Positions 46,025-52,407 of a stretch of DNA of 64,000 nucleotides are shown here, in pieces. This stretch comes from Rosistilla ulvae (GTDB lineage Bacteria > Planctomycetota > Planctomycetia > Pirellulales > Pirellulaceae). Numbering within the stretch: position 1 is the first letter of the stretch; every line of letters begins with the position of its first letter. The notes beneath the pieces were generated by a model. That model was not told the DNA's origin. It did no database searches and saw only the letters and a list, made by a program, of their open reading frames with translations. The translations under genes were made by a program, and so were the position numbers. The stretch lies in the NCBI RefSeq assembly GCF_007741475.1, contig NZ_CP036261.1, forward strand, positions 2,976,001 through 3,040,000, given 5' to 3'.

Positions 46025-46039
46025 GGTTGAGTCCAACAT
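46025..46039. repeat. 15-base direct repeat, copy 1
   Basis: GGTTGAGTCCAACAT, identical to 46725-46739 exactly 700 bases away. It overlaps the start region of the DUF1501 gene. Each copy is followed 8-9 bases later by an AATACCAGCACGA half-palindrome, so the two copies bracket the RAYT module. Confidence 0.8.
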
Positions 46040-46047
46040 ATTTAGGC

Positions 46048-46073
46048 AATACCAGCACGAAGCGAAAACGCGT
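46048..46073. repeat. Decayed half of the AGCACGAAGCG palindrome
   Basis: AATACCAGCACGAAGCG followed by a degenerate end (AAAACGCGTG) resembles one arm of the palindromes at 46105 and 46747. No opposite arm was seen immediately beside it. Confidence 0.65.
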
Positions 46074-46104
46074 GCACACCACACGTTCAAAGCCGCGTAT
46101 CAAA

Positions 46105-46170
46105 AATACTAGCACGAAGCGCAAGCGAGTGATTCCACTTGTTCACTCGCTTGCGCTTCGTGCTAGTATT
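46105..46170. repeat. REP-like palindrome at the 3' end of the RAYT gene
   Basis: The arms 46105-46132 and 46143-46170 form a perfect 28-base inverted repeat (core ACTCGCTTGCGCTTCGTGCT) with a 10-base spacer. The right arm includes the RAYT stop codon (minus strand TAC-TAG). The same core occurs at 46747-46865 and three times at 51695-51819. Confidence 0.92.
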
Positions 46171-46669
46171 GGTCTTCGAGTCCTTTTCTGTCCTGAGCTT
46201 CTCTCACGTATGCTATCGCGGATTCTAGATCGGCTTCGTGATTGATGTATCGGCAACTAGCACCTTCGGTCCAAAAGTGTTCACGCTTTGGATAGCTTGC
46301 TTTCAACTTACGAGTACACCAGGCTTTCAGTTGATCACGAACGGTTTCTGGTGGATATCCACTTGCGGTCGCAATCACATGGACATGATTCGATCGCGCA
46401 CTGACTTCATGCAGCAACCAGTTCCGGATTTTGCAATGCTCCTCCACCGTCGCTTCAACGACCTGGCGGTTATCAACCGTTAACAGGAACTCAGGTTCTT
46501 TCATCTGAGACTTGGCAAACTTTTGCAGTGGTTCGCAAGGAGGCCTCGCTCCTCCTTTTCCCCATTGATGCCAACCACGCTCGTCTCCGGGAAGCCAAGT
46601 CCCATAACATGTCCACGTGACAAAATATGCGAGGGGCTCTTCGGTGTTGAATGGGCGATCGGACATCAA
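46163..46669 (-). CDS. REP-associated tyrosine transposase (RAYT), Y1/IS200-like fold
   Basis: 168 residues. The N-terminus (AYFVTWTCYGTWLPGDERGW) is diagnostic of the RAYT/Transposase_17 family. The HUH-type metal motif is NHVHVIATASG, and the likely catalytic Tyr is in AIAYVREAQD near the C-terminus. RAYTs are single-copy, domesticated relatives of IS200/IS605 transposases that cut and move small palindromic REP elements. Here the gene is flanked on both sides by palindromes with the same core (46105-46170, 46747-46865), and its stop codon lies inside one. It sits between two genes that usually form an operon (PSD1, DUF1501). The catalytic residues look intact, so it may be active. Confidence 0.88.
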   Translation of the reverse strand: MMSDRPFNTEEPLAYFVTWTCYGTWLPGDERGWHQWGKGGARPPCEPLQKFAKSQMKEPEFLLTVDNRQVVEATVEEHCKIRNWLLHEVSARSNHVHVIATASGYPPETVRDQLKAWCTRKLKASYPKREHFWTEGASCRYINHEADLESAIAYVREAQDRKGLEDQY

Positions 46670-46724
46670 CCTGCGCTCCGGCGAACAGCGATCGCGACAT
46701 TCACGACGCAGGATTCAATGTAAC

Positions 46725-46739
46725 GGTTGAGTCCAACAT
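46725..46739. repeat. 15-base direct repeat, copy 2
   Basis: Identical to 46025-46039. On the minus strand it reads ATGTTGGACTCAACC, the start of the DUF1501 gene in copy 1, but here the frame ends after about 12 codons. It looks like a duplicated remnant of that start. Confidence 0.8.
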
Positions 46740-46746
46740 CTCCAAA

Positions 46747-46865
46747 AATACCAGCACGACGCGCAAGCGAGTGGTCATCCCCCAATAAACGCACGACCGC
46801 AAGCGGGGGGCGTTCGTTCGTAGGCTAATTCATTCATTCACTCGCTTGCGCTTCGTGCTAGTATT
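46747..46865. repeat. REP-like palindrome pair upstream of the RAYT gene
   Basis: The left arm 46747-46773 and right arm 46839-46865 match the palindrome core with two changes in the left arm. The 65 bases between them include GC-rich partial repeats (GACCGCAAGCGGGG). It lies between the PSD1 stop (46881) and the RAYT gene. Confidence 0.85.
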
Positions 46866-46880
46866 GGTGCTTGGCGACCA

Positions 46881-49800
46881 TCAGTACACGTATACAAATT
46901 CGTTGCTATTCATCAGCACTAAACAAACATCCGCCAAGGCTCGGGCTTTTTGATCCATTTCGCTCGGTTGGATATCGGGTTGGAAGTCGTCGAGAGCGTG
47001 TCTTGTTTCGGTGAAACGGAATCGCTCGCCAGTGTTCTCCTCAACCGCTTCGCGGATGACTTCACGAGCTGGCGGGTCGACCGGATCCGCTGTCGCTGGC
47101 AGCATCGACCAGATCCGCTGCCAATGCGTCACGGATCGCTCGATCTCTTCCGCCGTCGCTTCGCGGCTAAACAATCGTTGATAAATCATGCCGATCGCTT
47201 CGGTCGGATCGGAGGTGTTTTGTATCGCTTCGCTTGCCAATGCCCTCGCCCGGGCGTGGGTGTTGCGGCTGTTAAACATTGCAAACACCTGCGGCGTGAC
47301 TGTCGATGTGTCGCGGCGTTCGCAGGAGAAGTCGGGGGATGGCGCGTTGAAGACTTCGAGCCCCGGAGTGACTAAGCCGCGGAGTTTCAAGACGTAGATC
47401 GAGCGGCGGTTGCGTTGCTGTGGCTTGGGATTCGGTGTCCACGCCGCAGCAAACGTTCCCATCACCTGACGCGGTTGCAACGCAACTTCCGCATTGATGA
47501 TCGGTCGGCAGGGAATGCCACCCACCGCGGGATTTAATTCGCCGCTGACACTCAGCATCGAATCGCGAAGCTCTTCGGCACTCAAACGCCGCGGCAGGAA
47601 GACTGCGTACGCGTACGACGCGCGGGCCATCGCGTCGCGATCAAGCGTTTGGGGCTCTTGTGTTTCATCCGCTTCCGCGGGGTGCGGGTATCGAGTCGAC
47701 CGACAATAGGTGTCGGAGTTCATGATCGTGCGGTGCAGGTGCTTGATCGACCAACCGCTGGCAACCAGTTCACCAGCTAACCAATCGAGCAACTCGGGAT
47801 GCGTGGGGCGTTTGCCAGTCGAGCCGAAGTTATTGGGATTTCTCGCGATCGCGCGACCAAAGTGCCATTGCCAGATCCGGTTCGCGATCACGCGCGTGGT
47901 GAGCGGATTTTTGGGATCGGCGATCCAATTGGCGAGCACTGTTCGGCGACCATCAATCGTTCCGGGGATCTCCGCCGAAACCTGGTCCGCGATCACACTC
48001 AACACTCCCGCAGCGACAGGTTCGCCCGCGTCAAACGGGTCGCCGCCGGTATGGATCACCGATTTTTCGAGCTCACCGCGAGTGCGATCATTGGGCATTC
48101 GAAGCGGTTGGGAGACGGATGTCATCGACGGCGTGTGGCCGTTGTAGACCGAATGCGCAAAAGGTTGGTAGCGATCGAATTCCCATTGCAGTCGTTGCAT
48201 GCCTTTGCGAGAGACGCGTTCGAGCCCAAATTGTTGCGGAGTGAATCCGACGCGGACCGGTGGTATCTCCTGTGGATCGACTCCCGCAGAGATCAGAGCA
48301 CCACGAGCGGCAGCAAAAATCCCCCGCCCCGAACGTTTCTGTTTTGCCTTGGCAACCGCATCGTTCCATCGCTGCTTGATGGTCGCCTTTCGCTCCGCGA
48401 AAGTGTGTTCAGCTTGAGTCGTCGTTTGCTCCGCAGTCGGGCGTTGATCATCGGAACGCTCTTTCGCGGAGCGAAAGACGCCCATGTCGGCGTACCATTT
48501 TTCTGCGTTCTCCAGCAGGACTTCATCTAACTGCTGCTGCGTTTGGGCGTAGCTGTTCCGCTGCTGTTCGAGATACGTCTTCTCATCAAAACCGCTGGTG
48601 TTCTCATCCCGCAGAAAACGGGCAGGTCGTTCCGCCAATTGCGTCGTCGCGAAAACGGCTTGGATGCTGTAATAATCGCGAGTAGGGATCGGATCGAATT
48701 TGTGATCGTGACAACGACAGCATTGCAGCGATTGGCCGAGAAACGTTTCGCCCACGCTGTTGGTCACGTCGTCCAGGAATCGCATTCGGGCTACCTTGGC
48801 GACTTCCATGCCTGTCAATTCCCAAGGGCCCATGCGAAGGAACCCCACGGCGATGATGCCTTCAGGATCGTCGGGATCGATCTCGTCCCCCGCGATCTGC
48901 TCGCGGACAAATTGGTCGTAAGGTTTGTCGTCGTTAAACGACCGAATGACATAGTCGCGGTATCGCCAGGCGTTGCCCCGCTGGTAATCGTTAGCGAAGC
49001 CGGAGGAGTCGGCGTAGCGAGTCACGTCGAGCCAATGTTGGGCCATCCGTTCGCCGTAATGAGGTGAAGCGAGCAAGCGATCGACGAGCGATCGAAAGGC
49101 GGTTTTGTCATCCGCTGGGTCGCTGAGGAAGCTAGCGATCTCGCCGGGCGTCGGTGGCAATCCGGTCAGATCGAAGGTTGCGCGGCGGATCAGCGTCCGG
49201 CGGTCCGCTCGCGGTGCGACGGCGATCCCGTCGGGCATTGCATCGTCGATAAAGTGATCGACATCGCCCCGTTTCGCTCCGCCAGAGTGCGCAGCGTTTG
49301 CCGCACTTTCGTGGAGCGAAAGGCGACCTTTGACCGGTTGATACGCCCACAGGCCCGCCGGGTCGTAGCGCCGGTTGGTCCAGTTGCTATCGAGACCGCC
49401 GGAGGTGTTGACCTTCACGCCATCTTCGGACGACCAGGCGTCGGCGTATTCCGTTTCGATCGCGAGCGTCCGTTCATCCGCTGGCCAGTGGGCTCCCGTT
49501 TCAATCCAACGCCCGAGCCACCGGAGTTGTTCATCGCTGAGGGCTTCGCTTTCTTTCGGTGGCATCGCTGAGAAAGCGTCTTCGCCTCGTGCCGCCGCCA
49601 GATAGATCGAACTCGCGTTGGGCTGTCCCGGTACGATGCCAGCTTCGCCGCTGTCTCCGCCGGCAAGCAATGGAGCGATCGCGCGGAAGTCGATTCCGCC
49701 TTCGATCGCTTCGGGATCCTGGCCGTGACAGCCGAGGCACTTCTCACGGAACATCGGTGCGATCCGGCGGACGAAGAGGACTTCGCTTTCGCCGGATAGT

Positions 49801-49934
49801 TCTTTGTTTGGTTTGTCTGCGGCGCTTGCCGGTGCGATACCGCTGGTGAGGAGGATTGCCAGGAGGGCCAACGTGTGGATTGTTCGAATGATCGATCGGT
49901 GGGGACGCACTTTCGCGGAGCGAAAGGCGACCAT
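46881..49934 (-). CDS. PSCyt1/DUF1549/DUF1553 (PSD1) planctomycete protein
   Basis: 1017 residues if started at the ATG at 49934; in-frame starts at 49991 and 50024 are possible. A signal peptide (TIHTLALLAILLTSGIAPA) is followed by a planctomycete cytochrome c-like domain with the haem motif CLGCHG, then DUF1549 (FDLTGLPPTPGEIASFL, RMAQHWLDVTRYADSSG) and DUF1553 (TRVIANRIWQWHFGRAI, RRLSAEELRDSML). Such proteins accompany DUF1501 proteins and sulfatases in planctomycetes; the function is unknown. Its frame contains palindromic repeat segments at 48379-48485, 49262-49330 and 49910-49934, which add short charged stretches (FRSAKER, TFAERKATIK, SGGAKRGDVD). The likely start codon also lies in a repeat. 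It is divergent from a sulfatase gene. Confidence 0.9.
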   Translation of the reverse strand: MVAFRSAKVRPHRSIIRTIHTLALLAILLTSGIAPASAADKPNKELSGESEVLFVRRIAPMFREKCLGCHGQDPEAIEGGIDFRAIAPLLAGGDSGEAGIVPGQPNASSIYLAAARGEDAFSAMPPKESEALSDEQLRWLGRWIETGAHWPADERTLAIETEYADAWSSEDGVKVNTSGGLDSNWTNRRYDPAGLWAYQPVKGRLSLHESAANAAHSGGAKRGDVDHFIDDAMPDGIAVAPRADRRTLIRRATFDLTGLPPTPGEIASFLSDPADDKTAFRSLVDRLLASPHYGERMAQHWLDVTRYADSSGFANDYQRGNAWRYRDYVIRSFNDDKPYDQFVREQIAGDEIDPDDPEGIIAVGFLRMGPWELTGMEVAKVARMRFLDDVTNSVGETFLGQSLQCCRCHDHKFDPIPTRDYYSIQAVFATTQLAERPARFLRDENTSGFDEKTYLEQQRNSYAQTQQQLDEVLLENAEKWYADMGVFRSAKERSDDQRPTAEQTTTQAEHTFAERKATIKQRWNDAVAKAKQKRSGRGIFAAARGALISAGVDPQEIPPVRVGFTPQQFGLERVSRKGMQRLQWEFDRYQPFAHSVYNGHTPSMTSVSQPLRMPNDRTRGELEKSVIHTGGDPFDAGEPVAAGVLSVIADQVSAEIPGTIDGRRTVLANWIADPKNPLTTRVIANRIWQWHFGRAIARNPNNFGSTGKRPTHPELLDWLAGELVASGWSIKHLHRTIMNSDTYCRSTRYPHPAEADETQEPQTLDRDAMARASYAYAVFLPRRLSAEELRDSMLSVSGELNPAVGGIPCRPIINAEVALQPRQVMGTFAAAWTPNPKPQQRNRRSIYVLKLRGLVTPGLEVFNAPSPDFSCERRDTSTVTPQVFAMFNSRNTHARARALASEAIQNTSDPTEAIGMIYQRLFSREATAEEIERSVTHWQRIWSMLPATADPVDPPAREVIREAVEENTGERFRFTETRHALDDFQPDIQPSEMDQKARALADVCLVLMNSNEFVYVY
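48379..48485. repeat. Intragenic palindromic repeat inside the PSD1 gene
   Basis: The arm 48379-48403 (core CGCCTTTCGCTCCGCGAAAG) and the opposite arm 48461-48485 pair with two mismatches across a 57-base spacer. The same element is perfect at 50095-50163. It stays in frame and encodes FRSAKER and TFAERKATIK. Confidence 0.9.
49262..49330. repeat. Second intragenic copy of the palindromic repeat
   Basis: The right arm 49306-49330 matches the consensus with two changes; the left arm (about 49262-49287) is more decayed. It encodes RLSLHES and SGGAKRGD in the PSD1 frame, a different frame of the element from the copy at 48379. Confidence 0.8.
49910..49934. repeat. Half-palindrome at the PSD1 start
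   Basis: A single 25-base arm identical to the arm at 50139-50163. On the minus strand it begins ATGGTCGCCTTTCGC, so it supplies a possible start codon and the first eight residues (MVAFRSAK) ahead of the PSD1 signal peptide. Confidence 0.85.
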
Positions 49935-50094: not shown

Positions 50095-50163
50095 ATGGTC
50101 GCCTTTCGCTCCGCGAAAGTGCGGTCCGGATGCACGCTCTTTCGCGGAGCGAAAGGCGACCAT
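50095..50163. repeat. Perfect palindromic repeat between the PSD1 and sulfatase genes
   Basis: Arms 50095-50119 and 50139-50163 form a perfect 25-base inverted repeat (core CGCCTTTCGCTCCGCGAAAG) with a 19-base spacer. It lies in the region between two divergent genes, 32 bases before the sulfatase start, and could affect expression of either. Confidence 0.92.
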
Positions 50164-51653: not shown

Positions 51654-51694
51654 GCGCGGGGCGATGGAGGCGTATCGATGGGGATGGGAGGAGA

Positions 51695-51819
51695 TCACTC
51701 GCTTGCGCTTCGTGCTGGTATGGTAGAAGTGTCGCCGTGGGATCACTCGCTTGCGCTTCGTGCTGGTATGGTTGGAGTGACGCAGTGAGGTCACTCGCTT
51801 GCGCTTCGTGCTGGTATGG
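51695..51819. repeat. Three tandem repeats with a 48-base period
   Basis: Identical 29-base units start at 51695, 51743 and 51791 (core ACTCGCTTGCGCTTCGTGCT), separated by 19-base segments that are themselves related (about 13 of 19 match). The unit is one arm of the RAYT-associated palindrome with GGTATGG in place of AGTATTGG. The block lies between convergent sulfatase and trpG/pabA genes. Confidence 0.92.
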
Positions 51820-51825
51820 GGGCGT

Positions 51826-52407
51826 TTAACTCCAGTTGAGGAAGCGGGTTAGCAGTGCGATACCCGGTTCGGTCAAGAAGCTCTCGGGGTGGAACTGCCA
51901 GCCTTCGAGCTGGAATTTCTTGTGTCGCACGCCCATGATCTGCCGCGTTCCGCCGGTGTCGGTCCAGGCGGAAACGATCAGATCCTCGGGAAGCGAAGCG
52001 GGTTCGATCACTAGGCTGTGATACCGCGTCGCGACAAACGGCATCTCGATTCCTTCGAACAATCCGCCGTTGTCGTGGTAGATCTGGTCGGTCTTGCCGT
52101 GCATCAGTTCGGGGGCGCGGATGATCTTGCCTCCCAAAGCTTGGCCGATCGACTGATGCCCCAGACAGACGCCTAACAAAGGGATCCGCCCGGCGAAGTG
52201 TTTGACGACATCGACGCTGATCCCCGCCTCGCTGGGAGTGCAGGGGCCCGGCGAGATCAGGATTCGCGAGGGCTTCAGTTGTTCCAGCTCTTCGATCGAA
52301 ATCTGGTCGTTGCGACGAACCTGCACATCGATCTGCGGCTGGATTTCGCCCAACCGCTGGACCAAGTTGTAGGTGAACGAATCATAGTTATCGATGACAA
52401 CGACCAT
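51826..52407 (-). CDS. trpG: Anthranilate/aminodeoxychorismate synthase glutaminase subunit
   Basis: 193 residues from the ATG at 52407 (MVVVIDNYDSFTYNLVQRLG), the standard class I glutaminase start; the frame is open upstream to 52551 without similarity. The catalytic Cys is in LLGVCLGHQSIGQALGG, and the His-Glu pair is in GWQFHPESFLTEPG. The ISPGPCTPSEAGIS segment is typical of TrpG and PabA. It gives ammonia from glutamine to TrpE or PabB, neither of which is nearby, so it may serve both pathways. The stop is close to the tandem repeat block. Confidence 0.93.
   Translation of the reverse strand: MVVVIDNYDSFTYNLVQRLGEIQPQIDVQVRRNDQISIEELEQLKPSRILISPGPCTPSEAGISVDVVKHFAGRIPLLGVCLGHQSIGQALGGKIIRAPELMHGKTDQIYHDNGGLFEGIEMPFVATRYHSLVIEPASLPEDLIVSAWTDTGGTRQIMGVRHKKFQLEGWQFHPESFLTEPGIALLTRFLNWS

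Follow-up and report, generated by a model that had tools for sequence, protein, structure and literature searches.

A class 3-like RAYT gene amid a genome-wide REP family in the planctomycete Rosistilla ulvae

Tyrosine transposases known as RAYT, or TnpA_REP, are said to occur together with GTAG REPs, a pairing reportedly described by Nunvar in 2010 and by Bertels and Rainey in 2011. The 64,000-nucleotide stretch of R. ulvae DNA analysed here (hereafter the window; C1:2976001-3040000 of the host genome, G000, a single contig of 7.48 Mb) contains a gene of this kind, RAYT-A, surrounded by palindromes of another sequence. The locus raises the question of whether gene and palindromes belong together and, if so, which part of the repeat the protein would recognize and whether the system still moves. 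A preliminary description had seen here a self-contained, possibly active planctomycete version of the REP/RAYT pair with a repeat of its own.

RAYT-A and the REP-A repeats

RAYT-A lies between a DUF1501 gene and a gene for a planctomycete cytochrome (PSCyt) protein. The features of the locus, in window coordinates, are as follows.

46025-46039, forward strand: 15-nt direct repeat GGTTGAGTCCAACAT, copy 1, adjoining the DUF1501 start codon
46047-46078, reverse strand: degenerate REP-A arm, with three mismatches in the 20-nt core (46054-46073)
46105-46132, reverse strand: REP-A arm, left half of a perfect inverted pair (REPIN)
46143-46170, forward strand: REP-A arm, right half of the perfect pair, overlapping the stop and last codon of RAYT-A
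46163-46669, reverse strand: RAYT-A, class 3-like TnpA_Y1/RAYT gene, 168 aa from TTG
46725-46739, forward strand: 15-nt direct repeat GGTTGAGTCCAACAT, copy 2, 5' of RAYT-A, bracketing the gene together with the adjoining REP arm
46747-46773, reverse strand: REP-A arm, left half of the pair 5' of RAYT-A
46839-46865, forward strand: REP-A arm, right half of the pair 5' of RAYT-A
51693-51836, forward strand: REP-A tandem array of three 48-nt units in direct orientation

The RAYT-A protein matched the Pfam model PF01797 (Y1_Tnp) at 29.1 bits, above the cut-off of 23, and carries the HUH motif NHVH at residues 94-97, followed by W133, Y154 and Q159; the metal motif and the candidate tyrosine had thus been placed correctly in the preliminary description. 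In an alignment of 27 proteins, including that of the window, N94, H97, W133, Y154 and Q159 were invariant and H95 was present in at least 90% of the rows, the departures from NHVH being seven NHCH, two NHAH and one NYVH. The N-terminus is conserved as well (TW..YG, with T18, W19, Y22, G23, G28, R31 and G32 invariant in the 27 rows), and the protein-family profile spans 159 positions. Because the relatives point to it, the ATG at 46664-46666, one codon inside the TTG, is preferred as the likely start. The reading frame and the catalytic residues are intact in the window, the stop and last codon (46163-46170) being supplied by a REP-A arm, and the genome contains a single copy of the gene.

A structure model built from two sequences (mean pLDDT 72.4, two of the five models good) gave 27 PDB matches at E ≤0.001, every one titled as a transposase and the majority being IS608 or ISDra2, with TM scores to the PDB matches of about 0.5; the REP-bound RAYT structure 4ER8 came at rank 28, with E 1.2e-3. 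A sequence-profile search of solved structures with the RAYT-A family returned zero matches. Judging from motifs and predicted fold, the protein is an HUH/Y1 enzyme, which probably cuts and rejoins single-stranded DNA.

The 28-nt arms at 46105-46132 and 46143-46170 are 100% complementary and the arms at 46747-46773 and 46839-46865 are 93% complementary, in agreement with the two inverted repeats originally reported (46105-46170 and 46747-46865). Allowing up to three mismatches, the core ACTCGCTTGCGCTTCGTGCT was found at eight sites in the window (46054, 46111, 46145, 46753, 46840, 51697, 51745 and 51793), compared with 0.00 expected from 100 shuffles. The degenerate arm at 46054 is additional to those listed previously, while the three arms reported at 51695-51819 are present, but as direct repeats of the 48-nt unit and not as inverted arms.

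REP-A is a genome-wide REP family. The 20-base core occurs in G000 in 153 copies at ≤2 mismatches (78 forward, 75 reverse), as against none for the reversed-pattern control, and most of the clusters are far from RAYT-A. The G000 stretches examined held 153 copies at ≤3 mismatches in 35 clusters, 146 of these being at ≤2 mismatches and 99 exact. As many as 118 of the 153 examined copies form 59 inverted pairs; among the 95 adjacent pairs at ≤110 bp, these 59 have TAC/GTA outside, 15 have the opposite arrangement and 21 are direct. The unit reads 5'-TAC-n-AGCACGAAGCGCAAGCGAGT-G, and the GTA adjoining the core on the other strand was found, base by base, in 146, 143 and 146 of the 146 copies with ≤2 mismatches, the intervening base being free. 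The foot is therefore TACn, which distinguishes REP-A from the GTAG type, and the view of the preliminary description that this planctomycete gene has REP-like palindromes of its own was borne out, the palindrome recurring elsewhere in the genome. The REP-RAYT pair at the window is genuine.

A fold like that of the IS608 and ISDra2 TnpA proteins, a Y----Q motif that is said, in its class 3 form, to be akin to the class 1 motif (Quentin 2018, PMC6006769, in the part of the text available), and 15-nt direct repeats that bracket the gene beside REP arms could all be taken to indicate an ordinary IS200/IS605 insertion sequence, with the flanking palindromes as its ends. This candidate was rejected, and we regard it as very improbable: one gene copy stands against 153 repeats, mostly in distant clusters, and the match to the NCBIfam IS200 model is 24 bits, with a cut-off of 55. 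RAYT-A shares with IS608 and ISDra2 TnpA the Y1 fold and the HUH/Tyr site, and their hairpin with a 5' guide serves as a model; it differs from them in that no paired-end insertion sequence was found around it and that 153 REPs accompany the one gene.

A second palindrome, REP-B (CTTTCGCGGAGCGAAAG), is found (≤2 mismatches) within 120 bp of 47 of the 153 REP-A copies. REP-B palindromes also occur inside the 1047-aa PSCyt reading frame (48387-48403, 48461-48477 and 49306-49322), the protein containing the peptide FAERKATI, typical of REP-B, as well as around the PSCyt start and in the 5' part of a sulfatase reading frame (49910-49926, 50103-50119 and 50139-50155). Downstream of the PSCyt stop, in the region 46873-46882, the ten bases GGCGACCATC match the beginning of REP-B; all three congeners have them, and they are perhaps a remnant of that repeat.

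The repeat unit and its match with the protein

The palindromes of the preliminary description are real at the level of the inverted pair and not at that of the arm. With a DNA energy model, the inverted pair folds stably (-36.2 kcal/mol, z -13.45), unlike the single arm, which folds no better than shuffled sequences (-1.6 kcal/mol, z +0.59). The perfect 28-base palindrome was nevertheless rejected as the functional unit, considering that the two arms are unequal in 32 of the 59 pairs and that the differences fall mostly at two places: core positions 8 and 13 account for 42 of the 58 arm differences, where a uniform spread would give 5.8. In the whole set of 153 copies, these positions deviate from the majority in 26 and 25 cases, and every other position in at most five. 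They correspond to the third loop base and the bulge of a weak predicted arm hairpin, whose parts are, in order, CAC, GA, A, GC, loop GCAA, GC, GA and GTG. Because the arm differences concentrate at loop and bulge, the constraint is read as acting on the arm hairpin and not on the long pair. The repeat unit would then be one arm, 5'-TACnAGCACGAAGCGCAAGCGAGTG, predicted to form a weak bulged hairpin with a GCnA loop. An alternative for the two-position pattern is the co-existence of two arm subfamilies, comparable to the E. coli Y and Z REPs mentioned in the available part of Quentin 2018 (PMC6006769).

The strong fold, on both strands, of the 28-bp pair at the 3' end of RAYT-A (46105-46170) might suggest that the inverted pairs are transcription terminators or mRNA ends for the neighbouring genes, and that the Y1 gene is a bystander. 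We find this unlikely, in that terminators would not account for arms that are unequal in over half of the pairs and mostly at the same two positions, nor for array units that can be unpaired direct repeats; moreover, the match between protein and repeat described below would be left unexplained.

The flanks of all 30 related loci (from L039, that of the window, to L068) contained, as judged by eye, at least two units with the core GC-G[CT]nA-GC, a bare core which, taken alone, turns up about every 1.9 kb in the window. Two types of repeat were distinguished, the type labels, the repeat units and the tested hairpins having been selected visually from the very sequences on which the counts were then made. 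Type I (A[GA]CnCG..., mismatched stem) was found at 22 loci including the window, whose proteins have NHVH or NHAH, and in one case NYVH. Type II (mostly AGCGGn or AGCCGA, with a paired stem and one bulge) was found at eight loci, whose proteins are seven with NHCH and a long-branch one with NHVH (L064). On the tree of 27 proteins, repeat type changes twice, compared with a mean of 7.0 after shuffling (0 of 500 shuffles as low), and the long branch of L064 accounts for the second change. Among these sequences, repeat type follows the protein tree.

The tree covers 27 of 31 loci, the omitted ones being L041 (a near twin of L040), L045 and L052 (which contain stops) and L058 (on the same contig as L038). 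A contig scan for relatives found only L038, which is the same gene as L058 of genome G081. In five further loci (L055, L063, L066, L067 and L068), the match is interrupted by a stop, and only the open portion of each was used for the tree. Several starts were assigned manually.

The repeat alignments, with one to three units per locus, were also inspected for covariation. In the type II alignment (19 rows from seven of the eight loci, omitting L064 and all but one of the L059 units, with offset stems), five of eight pairs showed two-sided change and 98.7% of the cells were paired; two-sided cells numbered 16, whereas shuffling gave 4.4 and did not reach 16 in any of 500 runs. In the type I alignment (30 rows from 20 of the 22 loci, omitting L041 and L066), 94% of the cells were paired, and the only varying pair (A-T/C-G) was unpaired in nine of the 30 rows, so that covariation lends weak support to the hairpin predicted for type I.

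Our preferred reading is built on observations of repeat number, pairing, the conserved foot and the signature of the protein, and on the agreement between repeat type and protein tree. We consider it likely, with reasonable confidence, that RAYT-A is a single-copy HUH/Y1 endonuclease gene of class 3 signature amid a REP family recognized by its product, with the arm hairpin as the unit and with cutting and spread of REP pairs as the outcome. The recognition target would be one single-stranded arm, 5'-TACnAGCACGAAGCGCAAGCGAGTG, folded as a short bulged hairpin composed of a CAC/GTG stem, a GA/GA internal mismatch, a bulged base, a GC/GC stem and a GCnA loop, with the TACn foot on its 5' side. 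The protein would choose and bind one strand of the arm, the 5' foot possibly acting as a guide by analogy with TnpA_REP as presented in the available text of PMC8266576, and Tyr154 would cut that strand at or near the foot and then rejoin it. REP pairs could spread in this way, probably during replication, when the DNA is single-stranded, and the resulting arrays would afterwards expand or shrink via recombination. The locus and its kin offer a defined repeat unit and a structural prediction that is open to mutation of the loop, the bulge and the foot.

In the family at large, the protein (E ≤0.001) is present in 102 of 241 genomes, and the REP-A core at ≤1 mismatch in 58, with a single occurrence of the reversed control, in G181. 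A degenerate type I pattern is present in 83, and its reversed control in none of the 241. At least ten copies of the degenerate repeat were counted in 27 of the 102 genomes with the protein versus six of the 139 without it (Fisher p 8e-7, kinship not removed). The six are G168, G017, G063, G132, G199 and G238, and three of these assemblies are less than 95% complete. Of the 102 protein-bearing genomes, 49 have zero copies of the type I pattern, which would be expected wherever their repeat is of another type; each of the top 14 genomes by protein score has at least two copies of the degenerate repeat. In the phylum, the 27-protein profile found matches in 65 of 392 sampled genomes, 62 of them outside the family, where the weak matches may represent other Y1 classes.

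Congeners, array dynamics and present activity

The preliminary description linked the abundance of the repeat to the presence of the gene. The association holds across the 241 genomes, but was rejected for the closest relatives, which keep the repeats without the gene. The congener G168 (99% complete, one contig, 94-95% DNA identity around the locus) has 149 REP-A copies, and G167 has 14 at ≤1 mismatch; a protein of the RAYT-A subgroup was absent from both at E ≤0.001.

At the orthologous site of G168 (window 46040-46870), between the same two genes, there is another RAYT-like gene, encoding 246 aa with NHVH and YIQYNP (L105:351-1091, with flanking REP-B at 1172-1188 and 1288-1304). The matches of its protein to the NCBIfam RAYT model (2.3e-13; 50.3 bits, with a cut-off of 80) and to Pfam Y1_Tnp (19.1 bits, with a cut-off of 23) both fall short of the threshold. 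The gene was found in G168 and was absent from G000 and G167. REP-B has 75 exact copies in G000, 93 in G168 and 12 in G167. G000 and G168 thus both retain REP-A and REP-B, while at the same site G000 has RAYT-A and G168 the other gene. In G167, the DUF1501 and PSCyt neighbours are about 135 kb apart, REP-A-like remnants without RAYT-A are found at both break ends, and a stretch similar to the 15-nt repeat adjoins the DUF1501 gene. The 15-nt direct repeats and REP arms on either side of RAYT-A could permit clean loss of the gene by recombination, with the REPs left behind as in G167.

A broader scheme, which we put forward tentatively and judge to be rather doubtful as a whole, is that RAYT genes of different classes swap at one REP-rich site, which has a class 3 gene with REP-A in G000 and a class 2-like gene with REP-B in its sister species G168. 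Under this scheme, REP families would persist without their own enzyme, be re-mobilized when the gene returns and act as recombination seams; class 3 proteins would moreover recognize the hairpin of a single arm, with a GA mismatch in its stem and a GCnA loop. Recognition of such a hairpin was not met in the available part of the description of GTAG REPs. Two sister species that have both REP families in common, with different RAYT genes at one site, represent a natural contrast; the need of a REP family for its own RAYT in order to persist or grow can therefore be tested by comparison.

It is possible, at somewhat less than even chances, that copy number now results from local recombination and slippage only, and that the enzyme was an ancient source, by now idle or domesticated for another task. 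The array at 51.7 kb of the window consists of one unit in G167, two in G168 and three in G000, as slippage or recombination would produce. For 20 of the 35 REP-A clusters of G000, both flanks were matched among the stretches of G168 examined, and the other 15 did not match on both sides. REP-A is present in G168 as well in 19 of the 20 matched clusters, the exception being the site of RAYT-A itself, a figure biased to shared sites because most G168 stretches were picked for holding REP-A. Copy number differs between the two genomes in 17 of the 20, the largest excesses of G000 being 13 vs 1 and 8 vs 2, with 4 vs 9 in the reverse direction, which again fits recombination and slippage. The persistence of so many copies in G168 without the gene points the same way; exact copies are only somewhat rarer there (85 of 149, vs 99 of the 146 examined in G000; Fisher p 0.07).

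An idle enzyme, in contrast, does not sit well with the intact frame and catalytic residues of RAYT-A, and the family-wide match between repeat type and protein type presupposes that the protein has been at work over that time scale at least. Slippage alone would also not explain why a REPIN-bearing unit of about 330 nt, 82-88% like the 2.25 Mb array, recurs at 5.986 Mb in G000 (L119, C1:5986768-5987100). The L119 site is occupied in G167 by a reading frame that matches Y1 weakly.

The suggestion that the system is possibly active did not gain ground. About 320 kb of G000 were compared with G168 (340 kb) and G167 (400 kb), and further clusters with chosen stretches of G168; no clean REP insertion against an empty site was seen, and because of this we make no claim of present transposition. 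Synteny between G000 and G167 breaks at two REP-A clusters (3022037-3022873 and 3083221-3083367). Enrichment of breaks at REP-A is not claimed, because at least two further breaks are away from REP-A clusters (3044282-3072953 as a whole, and 3075739-3075930). Elsewhere in G000, two REP-A arrays enclose 15.3 kb (C1:97435-112787) with a Y1 gene (106194-106532); this segment is absent between the matching flanks of G168, which are joined there by 216 bp.

Relation to known systems

A class 3 of TnpA_Y1 proteins was described in Planctomycetes from 10 members and enlarged to 24, with repeats found by manual inspection; its authors called for experiments (Quentin 2018, PMC6006769). According to the available part of that paper, the class is characterized by NHVH, W[TA] and Y----Q, a length of about 178 aa and an extended conserved N-terminus (profile of about 155 aa), while its repeats are atypical, weak flanking secondary structures, possibly of high copy, with the foot CnGA. 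RAYT-A agrees with this account in NHVH, WT, Y154----Q159 and the conserved N-terminus, the profiles being of similar span (159 positions vs about 155); the fuller motif YV[VI][AENY]EQ is matched in part, as YVREAQ. REP-A likewise agrees in the weak fold of its single arm and in its high copy number (153). As for the foot CnGA, most type II units (AGCGGA, AGCCGA) fit it, whereas the type I of the window, TACnAGCnCGA, is one base longer, and type I has a mismatched stem, a comparison made with the class 3 repeats by description only.

RAYT-A and REP-A are therefore best filed with the class 3 TnpA_Y1 'REPtrons', as a probable variant in its repeat, the assignment being by signature. It follows that the planctomycete version with a different repeat is less new than the preliminary description implied: the repeat is probably a variant, but class 3, with its atypical REPs, had already been reported from Planctomycetes (Quentin 2018, as far as the available text goes). 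In a literature search that did not use the class 3 name as a term, no further paper was recognized as treating the class.

With the RAYT/TnpA_REP systems, as described in the available part of PMC8266576, the locus has in common that the Y1 gene is single-copy and lies amid its own REPs, that these form inverted pairs (REPIN/BIME) and that a genome contains several REP families. Canonical RAYT systems (class 2), in the descriptions available, differ in having a GT[AG]G foot and a stable REP hairpin, compared with the TACn foot and the arm z of +0.59 of REP-A; their motifs end in NP, while RAYT-A has Y-x4-Q and, at 16.2 bits, is far below the cut-off of 80 of the NCBIfam model REP_Tyr_transpos (NF047646). 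Many tyrosine transposase genes with flanking repeats were reported by Di Nocera 2013 (PMC3733652, available part) in 'R. baltica', which is read here as the planctomycete Rhodopirellula baltica. The REPs are sorted there by GTAG or CGTC tags, neither of which is present in REP-A, as compared by description.

Other Y1 genes of the three congeners (L033 and L034 in G000, L080 in G167, L078 and L092 in G168) encode Y-x3-Q-x2-HH, like subclass 1.2, and have their own repeats or palindromes on the flanks, even though subclass 1.2 has been described as generally without typical IS200 terminal structures.
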